Shown piece by piece: positions 22,008 through 32,724 of a stretch of 33,031 bases of DNA. The position numbers and the translations under genes are program-made. Position 1 is the first letter of the stretch. Every line of letters begins with the position of its first letter. The stretch covers positions 1 to 33,031 of the forward strand of contig CAIRTN010000407.1 of assembly GCA_903881515.1 (NCBI GenBank). The letters are read 5' to 3'. The stretch is from an uncultured Rhodospirillales bacterium. GTDB taxonomy: Bacteria; Pseudomonadota; Alphaproteobacteria; Acetobacterales; Acetobacteraceae. The notes beneath the pieces were generated by a model. It ran no database searches. It saw only the letters and a list, made by a program, of their open reading frames with translations, and had not been told where the DNA came from.

Positions 22008-22565
22008 ATGAACACATGGGCACACATCATCTCCGGTCTGAAAGGAACTTTCGCCACCCCCTGGCGGAGCTGCGCCCGGATTCCCGAACTCCTGCTGTTC
22101 TGGCTGACCCTGAAGCGCCTCACCACCGCGCTCGACACCCTGTTCACCGCCTGGCGCGAAGGCACGCTCCCCCCGCCGCCTGCCCCCGCCGCAACACGCG
22201 CGGCGCCCAAGCCCCCCTGCCCTGCAGCCAACACGCCGCATCGCGCCACGCCACGCATCCGCAAGTCCCAAGCGCGCCCTGCGCAGGCCCGCATGCGCCC
22301 AGCACCCGGCATCCTCCTGCCCGCGGCGCCGCGAGTCCCGCCGGCGGCTGCGCCCTCCCCTGCCGATCCCCCCGGCACGCCGTCAACCGCGCAAACCGGT
22401 CAATCTCATTTTTTGGACATTTTGGAAACCATGCATCTGCACGCCTTATTTGTTACGATAACAGAACAATATATTTTGCCCGCTTGCAATCCACAGAAAA
22501 ATCCGCAAACCTCGGCCCATGAGCACGTCCTGCCCCGCCATTCGATTTTGGTACCGTCGGTATAA
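22008..22565 (+). CDS. Hypothetical proline/alanine-rich protein
   Basis: 185 residues. Residues 1-52 look like a folded or amphipathic region (WAHIISGLKG, PELLLFWLTLKRL); 53-130 are low-complexity Pro/Ala/Arg-rich, probably disordered and basic. GC at third codon positions is high through about codon 130, which supports real coding. The last 55 codons are AT-richer and overlap the promoter and leader peptide of the DAHP synthase gene, so the true C-terminus may lie earlier or the tail may be unconstrained. I do not know a function. A good promoter sits directly upstream with the ATG at the predicted +1. Confidence 0.55.
   Translation: MNTWAHIISGLKGTFATPWRSCARIPELLLFWLTLKRLTTALDTLFTAWREGTLPPPPAPAATRAAPKPPCPAANTPHRATPRIRKSQARPAQARMRPAPGILLPAAPRVPPAAAPSPADPPGTPSTAQTGQSHFLDILETMHLHALFVTITEQYILPACNPQKNPQTSAHEHVLPRHSILVPSV
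22450..22512 (+). promoter_or_regulatory. Candidate promoters for the aroG leader
   Basis: Two possibilities. TTGTTA (22450-22455), 16 bases, TATTTT (22472-22477) would start RNA near 22484 and give a 35-base untranslated leader with no Shine-Dalgarno sequence. TTGCAA (22484-22489), 17 bases, AAACCT (22507-22512) would start RNA at the leader-peptide ATG itself, with the same geometry as the 21973 promoter; its -10 is weak. Confidence 0.4.
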
Positions 22566-22578
22566 TCCGGCGGTCTAG
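22519..22578 (+). CDS. Aromatic leader peptide (Phe-Trp-Tyr-Arg-Arg-Tyr) of the aroG attenuator
   Basis: A 19-residue ORF, ATG 22519 to TAG 22576-22578, with the core RFWYRRY: TTT at 22546, TGG at 22549, TAC at 22552, CGT CGG, then TAT at 22561. Consecutive Phe, Trp and Tyr codons plus a second Tyr in so short a peptide, followed by a terminator hairpin and then the first gene of aromatic biosynthesis, are the hallmarks of a ribosome-stalling leader peptide. No Shine-Dalgarno sequence precedes it, so initiation may be leaderless. The first 47 bases overlap the end of the proline-rich ORF in another frame. Confidence 0.8.
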   Translation: MSTSCPAIRFWYRRYNPAV

Positions 22579-22671
22579 GGACGCACGCTTATTGCAAACC
22601 CCGAAGCCGCCTCACCCGGGCGGCTTTCGTGTTTCTTGATCTCTCGAATTCCACCCAGGTGCGGCGGCTTC
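22535..22671 (+). promoter_or_regulatory. Transcription attenuator controlling DAHP synthase
   Basis: Competing arms in order: 1, CCGCC 22535-22539 (in the peptide, upstream of the aromatic codons); 2, GGCGGT 22569-22574 (at the peptide's end); 3, GCCGCC 22606-22611; 4, GGCGGC 22619-22624. Arms 1:2 enclose the Phe-Trp-Tyr codons. Arms 2:3 form an antiterminator. Arms 3:4 form the terminator. A ribosome stalled on the aromatic codons covers arm 1 and frees arm 2; one reaching the stop codon covers arm 2 and lets the terminator form. A further segment, 22658-22671, can pair with 22603-22616 (13 of 14 bases), offering a second way to break the terminator. Confidence 0.7.
22604..22636 (+). terminator. 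Intrinsic terminator of the aroG leader
   Basis: AAGCCGCC (22604-22611) and GGCGGCTT (22619-22626) form an 8-base-pair GC-rich stem with a 7-base loop, followed by the T-rich tail TCGTGTTTCTT. It would also end transcripts from the upstream proline-rich ORF. Confidence 0.75.
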
Positions 22672-22690
22672 CCAACAAAGGAAGCCTGTC

Positions 22691-22759
22691 ATGTCTGACG
22701 ATTTCGACGTCATCACCGGTCCCACCCTCCCCGCCAAGCCCAAGGCGCAGCTCCGATGA
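22691..22759 (+). CDS. 22-codon ORF translationally coupled to aroG
   Basis: ATG 22691 to TGA 22757-22759 encodes [10 protein letters not shown] followed by [12 protein letters not shown]. The strong Shine-Dalgarno AAAGGAAG (22677-22684) lies six bases before its ATG. Its stop overlaps the DAHP synthase start as ATGA at 22756-22759. The enzyme's own start has no good Shine-Dalgarno sequence, so ribosomes probably reach it by reinitiation. It contains one Phe and no Trp or Tyr, so it is not itself an aromatic sensor. It is after the terminator, so only read-through RNA carries it. Confidence 0.6.
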
Positions 22760-24120
22760 GCCCACTGGATCTCACCCAAGGCTGGACTCCTGAGTCCTGG
22801 CGCGACCGCACGGCCGCGCAGATGCCGGTCTACACCGACCCGGCCAAGCTCGACGCCGCCGAACGCCGCCTGGCCAACCTGCCGCCGCTCGTCTTCGCCG
22901 GCGAGGCCCGCCGGCTGAAAGCGGCTCTGGCCAAGGTCGCCGCCGGCGAGGCGGTGCTGCTGCAAGGCGGCGATTGCGCCGAAAGCTTCTCCGAATTTCA
23001 CGCCAACCTGATCCGCGACACCTTCCGCGTATTGCTGCAAATGGCCGTCGTCATGGGCTGGGGCGCCGGCATGCCGGTGGTCAAACTCGGCCGCATGGCC
23101 GGCCAGTTCGCCAAGCCGCGCTCCTCGCCGACCGAGGTGCTGGATGGCGTCACCCTGCCGATCTATCGCGGCGACATCATCAACGGCCCCGAGCCCGACG
23201 CCCGCGAACCCGACCCGTCCCGGATGATCGACGCCTACCATCAAAGCGCCATCACCCTGAACCTGCTGCGCGCCTTCGCCCAAGGCGGCTTCGCCGATCT
23301 GCGCCGGGTCCAGGCCTGGACCCAGGATTTCGTCGCCGGCTCCCCCGCCGCCGCGCGCTATCGCGAAGTCTCCGCGCGGATCGACGAAAGCCTGACCTTC
23401 ATGCAGGCGGTCGGCCTCGGCGAGAGCCGGGCGATTGCGGAGACCAGTTTCTGGACCAGCCACGAGGCGCTGCTGCTGCCCTATGAGCAGGCACTGACCC
23501 GCATCGACAGCACCTCGGGCGCCGCCTACGACTGCTCGGCGCATCTGCTGTGGATCGGCGATCGCACACGGCAGGTCGATGGCGCGCATGTCGAGTTCCT
23601 GCGCGGCGTCGGCAACCCGCTTGGCCTGAAATGCGGCCCCAGCCTGGGGGCGGACGAGTTGCTGCGGCTGATCGACATCCTCAACCCGAAGAACGAGCCA
23701 GGCCGGCTGACCCTGATCGCCCGCATGGGGGCAGAAAAGCTGGATGAGCATCTGCCGAAGCTGCTGCGCGCGGTAAAGGCGGAGGGGCGCAGCGTGGTCT
23801 GGATCAGCGATCCGATGCACGGCAACACGGTGAAGTCGCCCTCCGGCTACAAGACGCGGGATTTCGCCGCGATCCTGGCCGAGCTGCGCGCCTTCTTCGC
23901 CATCCACCGCGCCGAAGGCACCCATGCCGGCGGCGTGCATGTCGAGATGACCGGCAAGGACGTCACCGAATGCACCGGTGGCACCCAGGCGATCACCGAT
24001 GACGACCTCGCTGCCCGCTATCACACCCAGTGCGACCCGCGCCTGAACGGGGCACAGGCGATCGAGCTGGCGTTCCTGGTGGCGGAAGAACTGAAGGCCA
24101 GCCGAACCGGCTTGGCTTGA
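22756..24120 (+). CDS. aroG: 3-deoxy-7-phosphoheptulonate (DAHP) synthase, class II
   Basis: 454 residues. It condenses phosphoenolpyruvate and erythrose 4-phosphate to DAHP, the committed first step to chorismate and so to Phe, Tyr and Trp. Class II signatures include [11 protein letters not shown] (68-78, metal-binding Cys74), [26 protein letters not shown] (metal His), HVEMTG (metal Glu) and QCDPRLNG (metal Asp). Length matches the family (about 450-465). The start overlaps a 22-codon upstream ORF by ATGA. Expression is probably set by the aromatic attenuator at 22519-22640. The symbol is also written aroF or aroA2 in some genomes. Confidence 0.96.
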
Positions 24121-25192: not shown

Positions 25193-25872
25193 ACCGGGTC
25201 GCGCTGGTCACCGGGGCGGCGCGCGGCATCGGCGCGGCGATCGCCGCCCGGTTGCGGCGCGACGGCTACACGGTGATCGGCGCCGATCGGCAGGCCGCTG
25301 AGGGCTGCATCCTCGCCGATGTCGCCGACCCCACCGCGGTGCAGGCGCTGATCGAAGAGATCGACGCCAGCCACGGGCGGCTCGATGCGCTGGTCTGCAA
25401 TGCCGGATTCATGATCCGCAAGGGCATCGAGGAGCTGAGTCTCGCCGAATGGTCGTCGGTGTTAGCGACCAACCTGACCTCGACCTTCCTGCTGGTGAAA
25501 CAGGCGCTGCCGCTGCTGCGCGCGGCGCGCGGCGCGGTGGTCACCATCGCCTCGACCCGGGCGCACCAGTCGGAGCCGGATACCGAGTGCTATGCGGCGT
25601 CCAAGGGCGGCCTGGTGGCGCTGACCCATGCCCTGGCGGCGAGCCTGGGGCCGGAGGTACGGGTGAACTGCATTTCTCCGGGCTGGATCGACACAAGCAA
25701 CAGCACATTGTCGCTGGAAGACCACGCCCAACATTTCACCGGTCGGGTGGGCGTGCCCAACGATATCGCGGGCATGGCGGCGTATCTGCTGGGCCCCGAG
25801 GCGGGTTTCATCACCGGGGCGGAATTCATCATCGACGGCGGGATGACGCGAAAGATGATCTACGTCCCGTAA
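25189..25872 (+). CDS. Short-chain dehydrogenase/reductase
   Basis: 227 residues, classical SDR. TGAARGIG (8-15) binds the cofactor, NAG (71-73) stabilises the core, and Ser122, Tyr135 and Lys139 (YAASK) form the active site. The C-terminal IDGGMT is typical of FabG-like members. I take the GTG at 25189, where GTGA overlaps the preceding stop and GAGG lies 5 bases upstream; a GTG at 25177 would add four residues. The family is too broad to name a substrate. It is coupled to the serine hydrolase. Confidence 0.9.
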   Translation: MNRVALVTGAARGIGAAIAARLRRDGYTVIGADRQAAEGCILADVADPTAVQALIEEIDASHGRLDALVCNAGFMIRKGIEELSLAEWSSVLATNLTSTFLLVKQALPLLRAARGAVVTIASTRAHQSEPDTECYAASKGGLVALTHALAASLGPEVRVNCISPGWIDTSNSTLSLEDHAQHFTGRVGVPNDIAGMAAYLLGPEAGFITGAEFIIDGGMTRKMIYVP

Positions 25873-25910
25873 GCATCTTGTTGTACGGTTGGTCGTTAGG
25901 AAATCGAGAC

Positions 25911-27779
25911 ATGGCATTTCAGAACGGCATGATAACCAGAGCCCTGATATTGCTCGCGCTGCTGCTGGGCGCCACGCCAGCGCAGGCCGAGATCGTCACC
26001 CACGCCCGGTTCGATCGCAACGTCCTCGAATACACGCTGCACCGCGACCTCACCTGGGAGCTGGAGCAAAGCATCGACATCACGCTGCTGACCGGCGCGA
26101 TGGTGCGCGGCTTCGACCGGCTGGCGGCGTCGTATTACCCGGACAAGCAGACGCTGGGGGTGAAGGAAGCCTGGGTCGATCAACCCGACGGCACGCGGGT
26201 GCCGGTGCCGGCCAGCGGCATGGTGACGCGGCAGAGCCAGGCAGCGCAGAACGCGCCGGGCTTCGTCTCCTCGATGACCATCACCGTGCTGCTGCCGCAT
26301 CTGCGCGAAGGCAGCCGGGTACATGTGGTCTGGCTGCGCACGCAGAAGATCCCGGCATTGCTGGGCTTCAGCGCCTATAGCGTCGGCGCCATCGACGGCA
26401 TCGAGATCGTCACCAACGAGGTCCATATCGACGCCCCTGAGGACGTCACCCTGCGCTGGGCAACCCGCGGCGCGGTGGCGGTGCAGTCGGTGGTGGCCGA
26501 TGGCGTGCGCCACGTGATCGCCCGGTTGCCGCACGGCCGAGTGCGGATGGGCGAGCGGGCGGCGGTGAGCAACCGGGATTTCGAACCGATGTTCGTTGCC
26601 TCCAGCCTGGCCCGGCCGGAGGAGATTGGCGCGCTGATCTACAAGGCGTCGGAAGGCACCGGCACGGTCACGCCGGAAATCTCGGCGCTGGCCGCCCAGA
26701 TCGTCGGGTCGGCCGAGGGACTGGACGCGGCCCGCGCCGTGCACGCCTGGATCGCCAGCAATATCCGCTACATCGCGGTCTATCTGAACCCCGATGACGG
26801 GCTGGTGCCGCACCGCGCATCCGATGTGCTGAAGGCCGGCTACGGCGACTGCAAGGATTATACGGTGCTGATGCAGGCACTGCTCGCGGCACGCGGCGTC
26901 AGGGTGGTGCCGGCCATCCTTGACTGGGGCACGCAATACGCCGAACCGCCGCTGATCACCGGCTATTACGGCAACCACGAGATCGTCTACCTGCCGGATT
27001 ACGACCACTACGTGAACCCGACCGACCGCAACGCCCCGTTCGACGCGTTGGACCGGCGACTGTCCGGCAAGGCGGTCGTGCTGGTGACGCCGGAAGGGCA
27101 GGTGGTGCATACGCCGGCCTCGACGCCCGATGCCAATCTTTACCGCTATCGCGCGCAGTTGAGCCTGGACGAAGAGGGTACGATTCGTGGCACGGCGAAC
27201 TATAAAATGTCGGCTAATACCGAGATCGGCGCCCGCGCGGCGCTGACCGGGGCGCCGTCAATGGAAGAACTGAGCCGGCACGTGCTGAACGGAACGCGCG
27301 AAGGCGGCTTCGGCGTAGTCAGCGGCTCCGACCCGCGTGACTTGCTGCGGCCGTTGAACCTGACTGCAAGCTGGGAGAGCCCGATGGCGGTGAACCGCCA
27401 AGGCCGGGAGATCTATCTGCGCGTGCCGCAGGGGATGGACCTGTTCCCGCCGTCACTGCACAGGGAGAAGCTGCTGCACGTCGGCACGCGGACCTCGCCG
27501 GTGCTGGCCGATGCGGCGGATCTGGATTGGGAAACCGAAATCGCGCTGCCGGCCGGGCTGAAGCCGGCATTGCTGCCGCCGAATGTCGATCTGGTGACGG
27601 CGGTAGGGCGCTACAGCGCGCAGTACCGGATGAACGGCCGCGCGATCATGGTGTCGCGCAACCTCGTGATCGACCGCGACGTCGTGCAACCCGGCGATTA
27701 CGCCGCGCTGCAACGGCTGCTGACCGCCCCGGTGACCGACGCGCGATCGGTGATCGTGCTGACCGCGGCGGGAGAGTAA
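25911..27779 (+). CDS. Secreted DUF3857/transglutaminase-like cysteine protein
   Basis: 622 residues. A Sec signal peptide (about 1-26, ending ATPAQA) precedes a DUF3857 beta-rich domain (30-240) and a transglutaminase-core domain (about 265-385) with an intact triad: Cys314 in GYGDCKDY, His356 in GNHEIVYLP and Asp372 in NPTDRN. The C-terminal 200 residues are beta-rich (DUF2569/3858-like layout). Known proteins of this build are periplasmic and mostly uncharacterised; peptide or amide cleavage or cross-linking is the likely chemistry. AGGAAA lies upstream of the ATG at 25911. The next gene is a paralogue starting 4 bases after this stop. Confidence 0.88.
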   Translation: MAFQNGMITRALILLALLLGATPAQAEIVTHARFDRNVLEYTLHRDLTWELEQSIDITLLTGAMVRGFDRLAASYYPDKQTLGVKEAWVDQPDGTRVPVPASGMVTRQSQAAQNAPGFVSSMTITVLLPHLREGSRVHVVWLRTQKIPALLGFSAYSVGAIDGIEIVTNEVHIDAPEDVTLRWATRGAVAVQSVVADGVRHVIARLPHGRVRMGERAAVSNRDFEPMFVASSLARPEEIGALIYKASEGTGTVTPEISALAAQIVGSAEGLDAARAVHAWIASNIRYIAVYLNPDDGLVPHRASDVLKAGYGDCKDYTVLMQALLAARGVRVVPAILDWGTQYAEPPLITGYYGNHEIVYLPDYDHYVNPTDRNAPFDALDRRLSGKAVVLVTPEGQVVHTPASTPDANLYRYRAQLSLDEEGTIRGTANYKMSANTEIGARAALTGAPSMEELSRHVLNGTREGGFGVVSGSDPRDLLRPLNLTASWESPMAVNRQGREIYLRVPQGMDLFPPSLHREKLLHVGTRTSPVLADAADLDWETEIALPAGLKPALLPPNVDLVTAVGRYSAQYRMNGRAIMVSRNLVIDRDVVQPGDYAALQRLLTAPVTDARSVIVLTAAGE

Positions 27780-27783
27780 GGCG

Positions 27784-29646
27784 ATGCGGGTGTGGCTCGC
27801 GCTGCTGCTGATGCTGGCGACGCATCTGGCACAGGCACAGGCGGTGGTGCATGCCCGGATCGACCGCGACGTGCTGGACTACACGCTCAACGCCGATTTC
27901 ACCTACACGATGACCCAGACCACCGACCAGACCTTGCTCACCCGCCGCGGGTTGCAGGCGCTGGACCGCGCGACCTTCACCTTCGCGCCGGATAAGCAAA
28001 GCCTGGAGGTCGCCGAAGCCTGGGTCGACCAACCCGACGGCACCCGGGTCACCGTGCCGCCAGGTTCGATCTTCACCCGGCCCAGCCGGGAGGCACAGGC
28101 CGCTCCGGCGTTCCTGAACACCGTCACCACCACCGTGCTGTTTCCGCAACTGCGCGAGGGCAGCCGGACGCATGTGGTGTTCCGGATGCTGCGCACCGTG
28201 CCGCACCGTCTGGGCTTCAGCGTCAGCTACAATGCCTGGCTGGAGTGGGACGCCGCGGCGCAGGACATCATCGTCAACCTGCCGGCAAGCATGACTTTCC
28301 GCTGGGCCCAGCGTGGGGGCGTCGCGGTGGAGGACAAGGTCGAAGGCACGACCCGGCGCGTGATCGCGCATATGCCGCCCTCCCAGCGGCACGACGCCGA
28401 GCCGGCGATGGTAAGCCCCCGCGACGTACTGCCGGTGTTCCTGGCCACCACCCTGCCCTCGGCCGAGGCAATCGGCGCAATGCTGTACCGTGATTCAGCT
28501 GGCTCCGCGGCAGTCACCCCCGAGATCGCGTCACTGGCCGGGAGAATCGCCGGCGACCGCATCGGGGAAGACGCGGCGCGGGCGATCCACGCCTGGGTGG
28601 CGGCAAACATTCGCTACGTGCCCGTGCAGTTGAACACGCTGAGTGATTTCGTCGGTCACACCGCGGCCGAGGTGCTGAAGGCCGGCTTCGGCGACAGCCG
28701 CGATTTCGTGGCCCTCTGCCGCGGCCTGCTGGCCGCACGCGGCATCGACGGCCAGGCAGCCTTGGTGGAGGCGGGCACCCGCTACGCCGACCCGGTGCTG
28801 GTAACACCGCACTTCGCCGATCACGAGATCCTGTATCTGCCAGCCTTCGACCGCTGGCTGAACCCGGTGGACCGCAACACGCCGTATGACGGGCTGGACC
28901 GCCGGCTGTCCGGCAAGCTCGTCGTGCTGATCACCCAAGGCGGCAAGGTGACGCACACCCCGCCTTCAACACCCGCCGCGCATCGCTATGTCTATACAGC
29001 GCAGCTGAACCTGGACGAGGGTGGGTCGGTGCACGGCACCGGGCGCTACAGCTTCTCAACGACAGCCGAAAGCGGCATGCGCCGGGCGCTGGCGAACGCG
29101 ATGTCGATGTCGGCCCTGGCCGCGGATTCCCTCGGCGCGTCTGGCGAGAGCGGCTTCGGCAGCTTCTCCGCCTCCGATCCGAAAAACCTGCTGCAACCAC
29201 TGAAGCTGACCTCGCGGTGGGACAGCCCCAACATGGTGAACCACGAAGGCGAACGGATCTATCTCAGTGTGCCGCAAGGGCTCGATCTGGCGCCCGCCTT
29301 ATCGCAACGCTCCAAGCTCGCCCCGCGCAGCGAACGGCTCTGGCCAGCGCTCGCCGACGCATCTGACCTGACCTGGAACAACGAAATTTTCCTGGCCGGT
29401 GGGCTCAAGGTGGCGCAATTGCCACCGAATGTTGAGGTTGAAACCGCGGCCGGACGATACTCAGCAACCTATAGTGAAAAAGAGGGAACGATATCGGTGA
29501 TCCGGCACCTTGTGATCGCCACCGACGTGGTGCCGGCCGCCGATTATGCCGGTCTGCGTCGGCTGCTTTACGCCGCGGTCGTCGACGCGCGCGCTGTACT
29601 CGCGTTGGAAACCGCAGGCCCGGCAGATGCGGAGATCGTCCCTTAA
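27784..29646 (+). CDS. DUF3857/transglutaminase-like paralogue with Ser in place of catalytic Cys
   Basis: 620 residues, paralogue of the preceding gene over its whole length: signal peptide (1-19, ending AQAQA), DUF3857 domain, transglutaminase-like core and C-terminal beta domain. His347 (DHEILYLP) and Asp363 (NPVDRN) of the triad are kept, but the nucleophile position in GFGDSRDF is Ser305 (AGC at 28696-28698). The protein is therefore either inactive as a cysteine enzyme, perhaps a binding partner or regulator of its neighbour, or uses serine. The frame is intact and codon use normal, so it is not decaying. Its stop is 16 bases from the probable original stop of the convergent chemoreceptor gene. 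Confidence 0.88.
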
Positions 29647-32638: not shown

Positions 32639-32724
32639 GCGGTCGTGGCGGAATGGTAGACGCGCAAGCTTGAGGTGCTTGTGGGGGTAACCTCGTGGAA
32701 GTTCGAGTCTTCTCGACCGCACCA
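32639..32724 (+). tRNA. tRNA-Leu (anticodon GAG)
   Basis: An 86-base class II tRNA with encoded CCA. The acceptor stem is GCGGTCG/CGACCGC, the anticodon arm is CAAGC-TTGAGGT-GCTTG giving anticodon GAG, the variable arm is long as in leucine tRNAs, and the T arm contains GTTCGAGTC. It reads CUC and CUU codons. A TTTTT run at 32726-32730 follows directly. Confidence 0.95.

Follow-up and report, generated by a model that had tools for sequence, protein, structure and literature searches.

Within the 33,031-nucleotide stretch of DNA analysed here (the window), a class II DAHP synthase gene (aroG) lies behind a short leader peptide ORF, an intrinsic terminator, a second hairpin and a small ORF coding for a microprotein, all on the same strand; coordinates are listed in Table 1. 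The initial annotation of this DNA identified the aroG product correctly, its score lying above the TIGR01358 cut-off, and the 19-residue ORF containing Phe-Trp-Tyr that it reported is confirmed by translation. This is the single ATG-initiated ORF of 10 to 30 codons in the window with four aromatic residues within seven; dinucleotide shuffles of the window (n = 20) give a mean of 0.3 such ORFs. Its Phe codon is the rare one, the ten window ORFs using TTC 120 times and TTT 12 times.

Table 1. Features of the region upstream of and including aroG, with positions in the window.
Feature	Position	Strand	Basis
Predicted promoter; -35 TTGCAA (22484-22489), weak -10 (~22506-22511)	22484-22511	+	Aligned elements
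Leader peptide ORF, MSTSCPAIRFWYRRYNPAV, 19 aa	22519-22578	+	ORF translation; core common to 26 genera
Control codons TTT TGG TAC (Phe-Trp-Tyr)	22546-22554	+	Masked-ribosome folding
Arm 1 of pause hairpin (partner 22567-22574)	22553-22560	+	~90% of cells paired, 93 distinct sequences
Arm 2; partner of arm 1 in the pause hairpin, of arm 3 in the antiterminator (via 22569-22574)	22567-22574	+	Pairing conservation
Intrinsic terminator hairpin followed by T-rich tail; arm 3 (5') 22604-22611, arm 4 (3') 22619-22626	22603-22627	+	Terminator scan
Second hairpin, GGCTTCC...GGAAGCC, over the small-ORF Shine-Dalgarno	22666-22686	+	Arms 22666-22672 and 22680-22686 covary
Microprotein ORF, stop overlapping the aroG start (ATGA)	22691-22759	+	Counterpart in 113 of 131 elements
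Class II DAHP synthase (aroG), controlled gene	22756-24120	+	PF01474, E 2.5e-205; TIGR01358, 708 bits (cut-off 615)

The sole match in the window above the Rfam 15 threshold is a tRNA gene (32639-32721, + strand). No Rfam 15 family matches the leader and terminator region (the element) above its gathering score, and the element has no match among PLSDB plasmids. A weak match to RF00624 (Pseudomonas sRNA P9) at 22544-22628, with 19.5 bits against a cut-off of 43, is likely due to chance or to a shared terminator-leader shape. Two adjacent ORFs with DUF3857, transglutaminase-like and DUF3858 domains occupy positions 25449-29646.

Two class II DAHP synthases are encoded in the genome from which the window comes (477 contigs), one in the window and one on contig C49. 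In a genus-mate and six other genomes of the family the enzyme is 71-77% identical to that of the window, and all have the leader, the terminator and the small ORF. The check proposed with the initial annotation, a search for the peptide and terminator upstream of related genes, thus had a positive outcome, with the leader present at 8/8 of the DAHP synthases of this clade first inspected; the other class II loci first fetched, including the C49 copy, have no such leader in any upstream region. Through exact matches to a 14-base motif, the leader was also found upstream of trpG in other genera; with one mismatch allowed the motif is too unspecific to serve as a family survey. A covariance model (R1) gave strong matches (E<=1.7e-8) in 92 of 397 family genomes, representing 26 of 102 genera. 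With a second model (R2), matches across the order fell inside the window's family only, while across the class there were matches in other families, with convincing leaders in f37, f51, f56, f122 and f145. A pattern scan of named genomes matched Belnapia, Roseicella, Paracraurococcus, Siccirubricoccus, Dankookia, Caldovatus and Limobrevibacterium, as well as Azospirillum (A. brasilense and others), Dongia and Acetobacteraceae MAGs. By these sequence comparisons the element is conserved in many alphaproteobacteria.

Alignment of the leaders reveals a strikingly conserved peptide core, RFWYRWY.PAA, and an N-terminal half that varies between genera. The triplet reads FWY in 103 of 129 elements, and among matched triplets Phe is encoded by TTT in 104 of 105. 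The window leader has one Trp codon whereas most leaders have two, and some aroG leaders carry FYY or FYR in place of FWY. A weak match was seen in family f145 (L191, 1501-1601), where a GTG-start leader with Tyr-Tyr (GLYYAAS) precedes a gene that by eye resembles prephenate dehydrogenase; it is possibly a Tyr attenuator.

The RNA structures are conserved along with the peptide. A terminator is recognised in 128/131 elements, in the window at the place where it had been proposed, and the three pairings 1:2, 2:3 and 3:4 are kept in 89 to 99% of cells. The arm 2 (22569-22574) and arm 3 (22606-22611) of the initial annotation pair in 97.8% of cells across 93 distinct sequences. Its arm 1 (22535-22539) fares less well: it can pair, yet only 78% of cells are kept and 43 of the 93 sequences are broken at one pair. 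The better arm 1 lies within the control codons, as in Table 1. The 2:3 antiterminator is not proven by covariation, because its arms are so conserved that no compensatory change is seen, which counts against the attenuator model.

We folded the RNA of 105 elements with 30 bases masked at successive codons, the size of this ribosome footprint being an assumption. Before arm 4 has been made, the mean probability of the 2:3 pairing is 0.94, 0.93 and 0.92 for a ribosome stalled at the F, W and Y codons, respectively, and falls beyond the triplet to 0.87 at the next codon, 0.49 at the second W, 0.07 at the second Y and 0.01 at the stop codon; with no ribosome it is 0.17 (median 0.04). In the window the antiterminator has a probability of 0.96-0.97 at FWY, against 0.00 both for a ribosome on the stop codon and for RNA with none. 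All three aromatic codons are thus placed so as to allow antitermination in silico. The proposal that the aromatic codons act as sensors is therefore supported for the triplet (and the following Arg), although the second Tyr is predicted not to be antiterminating. In the complete RNA at equilibrium the terminator is preferred in all states (P(3:4) of 0.76-0.93 with a stalled ribosome, 1.0 in the window), and the switch must therefore be a kinetic one.

Aligned on the leader ATG, 129 elements share a TTG at -35 to -37 and a T/A-rich stretch at -13 to -11; the -35 was used as a weak tie-breaker in choosing the ATG, so that its signal is somewhat inflated, while the -10 is unaffected. A Shine-Dalgarno-like motif precedes the leader ATG in only 5/129. 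Because of this conserved promoter spacing, the message is predicted to be leaderless, with transcription starting at or next to the leader ATG. A scan of the window found no consensus promoter, and its own -10 box is poor, which we count against an attenuator.

Codons for the end products of the pathway thus lie in a short ORF, a terminator stands between this ORF and the structural gene, and in silico a mutually exclusive antiterminator is set by the position of the ribosome on the control codons. We regard it as highly probable, from the comparison and the folding, that the element before aroG is a ribosome-mediated transcription attenuator, and likely that it senses all three aromatic amino acids; this much of the initial annotation has strong support. 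In the model that we infer, transcription would begin at, or right next to, the leader ATG, and ribosomes would make the peptide from this leaderless message. With Phe-, Trp- and Tyr-tRNA all present in charged form, the ribosome would reach the stop codon and mask arm 2, and the terminator would form. When any one of the three is short, the ribosome would stall at the control codons and mask arm 1, arm 2 would pair with arm 3, the terminator would be pre-empted, and the microprotein ORF and aroG would be transcribed. Without translation, the hairpin of arms 1 and 2 would form and transcription would end. Translation of the microprotein would start from the Shine-Dalgarno held in the second hairpin; the ATGA overlap probably couples the translation of aroG to it.

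The small ORF, which like the second hairpin had been missed earlier, encodes ~20-70 amino acids with a core (F/Y)DFDV..GP, in which D-F-D-V is nearly invariant, and a Pro/Ala-rich tail (28% Pro, 19% Ala) almost free of aromatic residues. A pN/pS of about 0.21 in the core supports selection on the protein. The window product has no Pfam or NCBIfam match, and in Azospirillum thermophilum the CDS under the matching DNA (an Azospirillum plasmid record) is annotated as 'hypothetical protein' only. At trpG loci the small ORF overlaps the gene start by four bases in 19/25 cases, and at DAHP synthase loci it is mostly within 25 bases of the gene start; where present, aroG or trpG thus usually appears tightly coupled to it. 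The gene that comes next can be on the opposite strand in Azospirillum and Dongia, and therefore the small ORF stands alone there; a second terminator after such stand-alone ORFs is no commoner than in shuffles.

Three side observations concern this ORF. In genus g57 (L140, L148, L153, L154, L155 and L160) it appears to continue in frame into a larger protein (LSTLGLMGALQ...) resembling a solute-binding-type protein without a signal peptide, which may hint at function. In the Roseomonas-like genus g102 (L126, L205 and others) a stand-alone microprotein ORF is followed by a conserved ORF of ~98 amino acids, MRPADWNLLSDDVQLTLSREALRRAAETLA... In genus g76 (L146 and L165) its N-terminus is longer (MTRLIFRYTPRDTVDFDVCSGP), and the next gene resembles beta-N-acetylhexosaminidase.

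The genes that follow are more varied. The next same-strand gene is a class II DAHP synthase at 33 of the 131 elements, trpG at 26, trpS at three and none of these at 58, the contig ending at the other 11. The small ORF is kept at 54 of those 58, and from these positions it often seems to be the only visible target of the element. It is missing where the element is fused directly to aroG, as in f56, f122 and a few members of the family. In a tree of 56 DAHP synthases the label 'with leader' has to change at least twice, and the association therefore arose or was lost more than once. In the window's genome the C49 synthase and a trpG (C353) have no such leader, so the switch would control one isozyme and not the pathway; trpE (PF04715) was not found in this genome, which is ~90% complete. 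The suggestion of a single control on the whole pathway therefore does not stand, given also the 26 trpG loci, the three trpS loci with W-only variants, the 58 with neither these nor aroG, and a microprotein ORF behind the terminator in 113 of 131. Nor is aroG supported as the purpose of the element, the microprotein being its more constant neighbour. One genome thus combines a DAHP synthase isozyme behind the switch with another that lacks it. At L167, L169 and L170 (genus g76), weaker relatives of the element, without the microprotein ORF, lie before tryptophanyl-tRNA synthetase with the Trp-only leaders RLWRRWRH, LWRRWQH and SWRRWHP; W is kept (LWRRW, SWRRW) and F-Y is missing, so that the composition of the sensor follows the target gene.

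We propose tentatively, and with slightly more doubt than belief, that the microprotein is the main and ancestral output of the element, made only in shortage of any aromatic amino acid, and that aroG and trpG are later, repeated, coupled additions. If so, the microprotein would act when aromatic amino acids run out, as a regulator or partner not yet described, across Rhodospirillales-like alphaproteobacteria. The predicted logic of its expression points to a role in such shortage, and the survey exposes a widespread, conserved and undescribed microprotein gene in organisms with workable genetics, such as Azospirillum brasilense.

The second hairpin covers the Shine-Dalgarno of the small ORF or, where this ORF is missing, that of aroG. 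Its arms vary in concert between genera (GGCTTCC/GGAAGCC, GGTTTCC/GGAAACC, CGGTCTC/GAGACCG, CCTTGG/CCAAGG and others) and score 13.5 with their own partners against 10.8 when swapped (z ~5.8), with 0/400 permutations reaching the own-arm score in each set reported; the listing of arms was not blind to pairing, although the permutation test took the arm by position. This hairpin would keep the Shine-Dalgarno closed even in an antiterminated transcript, which counts against the attenuator model, since the model leaves the closure unexplained. In the lowest-energy fold of the window the terminator 5' arm is paired with the upstream arm of the second hairpin and the Shine-Dalgarno is freed, so the two hairpins may be linked.

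The same sequences bear on whether the terminated short RNA or the leader peptide also acts in trans, like rnTrpL and peTrpL of S. meliloti. The leaderless start and the length of ~110-120 nt predicted for the terminated RNA resemble S. meliloti trpL (PMC7298713), and the anti-Shine-Dalgarno arm is a repeat of the terminator 3' arm (GGCGGCTTC, GGCGGCTTT), which could let it pair with the terminator 5' arm. Against this, the peptide N-termini differ between genera. We think such action unlikely, and it would be compatible with attenuation in cis.

A second alternative is that a Trp attenuator has been recruited to aroG, with only the Trp codons mattering and Phe and Tyr as passengers. The two Trp codons of most leaders and the trpG and trpS neighbours would fit, but the prevalence of FWY with a rare Phe codon does not, and the folding predicts that stalls at F, W and Y act equally, one at the second Trp having only half the effect. 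Furthermore, the single Trp codon of the window contrasts with this reading, the aroG leader MHKMIDIGRFYYRPDYLPAA (L007) has no Trp codon at all, and Trp-only leaders, such as RLWRRWRH before trpS, look different. We consider this reading quite improbable.

It is more doubtful still, and in our judgement very improbable, that the peptide is a nascent-chain arrest peptide whose aromatic residues sense a small molecule rather than charged tRNA. Conservation of the flanks (R before, R-W-Y after and the terminal PAA) equals that of the triplet, which would fit an arrest peptide, but R-W-Y and P-A-A are conserved because their codons are the bases of arms 1 and 2. The N-terminal half is not conserved, and the residues vary with the target (W-only at trpS, FYY or FYR in some aroG leaders), as codon sensing expects. 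Finally, although GC-rich DNA commonly holds short ORFs, the peptide, the arms and the spacing are so strongly conserved across 26 genera and several families that a chance ORF ahead of an ordinary terminator is ruled out. Attenuation by ribosome stalling at the aromatic codons remains the reading that we favour.

The trpL, pheL and pheST attenuator leaders of E. coli sense one amino acid each and have a Shine-Dalgarno sequence, and to our knowledge the attenuators known so far read one amino acid or two; we know of no homology between the aroR leader of Corynebacterium glutamicum and the element described here. A search of open-licence literature returned no description of the element or its microprotein. 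That an aromatic leader can attenuate DAHP synthase is itself already known. In C. glutamicum an operon that includes a DAHP synthase gene is attenuated by AroR, a Phe-Tyr-Phe leader before aroF (PMC11802643, citing Neshat et al. 2014); the principle is alike, but as summarized there AroR reads Phe and Tyr, whereas here Phe, Trp and Tyr stand in a row in an alphaproteobacterial leader peptide whose message is predicted to be leaderless, with a conserved microprotein ORF and a Shine-Dalgarno hairpin downstream. The uORFC-13-1 motif of Acholeplasma (24 representatives; PMC8632094) likewise places a uORF with Phe codons, at least one being noted, together with an intrinsic terminator ahead of the DAHP synthase gene aroF; it differs in lineage, in having a ribosome binding site and in that the cited account of the motif describes no microprotein. 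Closer in lineage is the ribosome-dependent trpLE(G) attenuator of Sinorhizobium meliloti, another alphaproteobacterial system, in which the RNA starts at the leader ATG (PMC7298713), as is predicted here; it reads consecutive Trp codons before trpE(G), in contrast to FWY before the microprotein, aroG or trpG. The stalling and the alternative 1:2, 2:3 and 3:4 pairings predicted here are those of E. coli trpL, pheL and pheST as outlined in a published account (PMC11802643). The element described here is predicted to respond when any one of three amino acids runs short.
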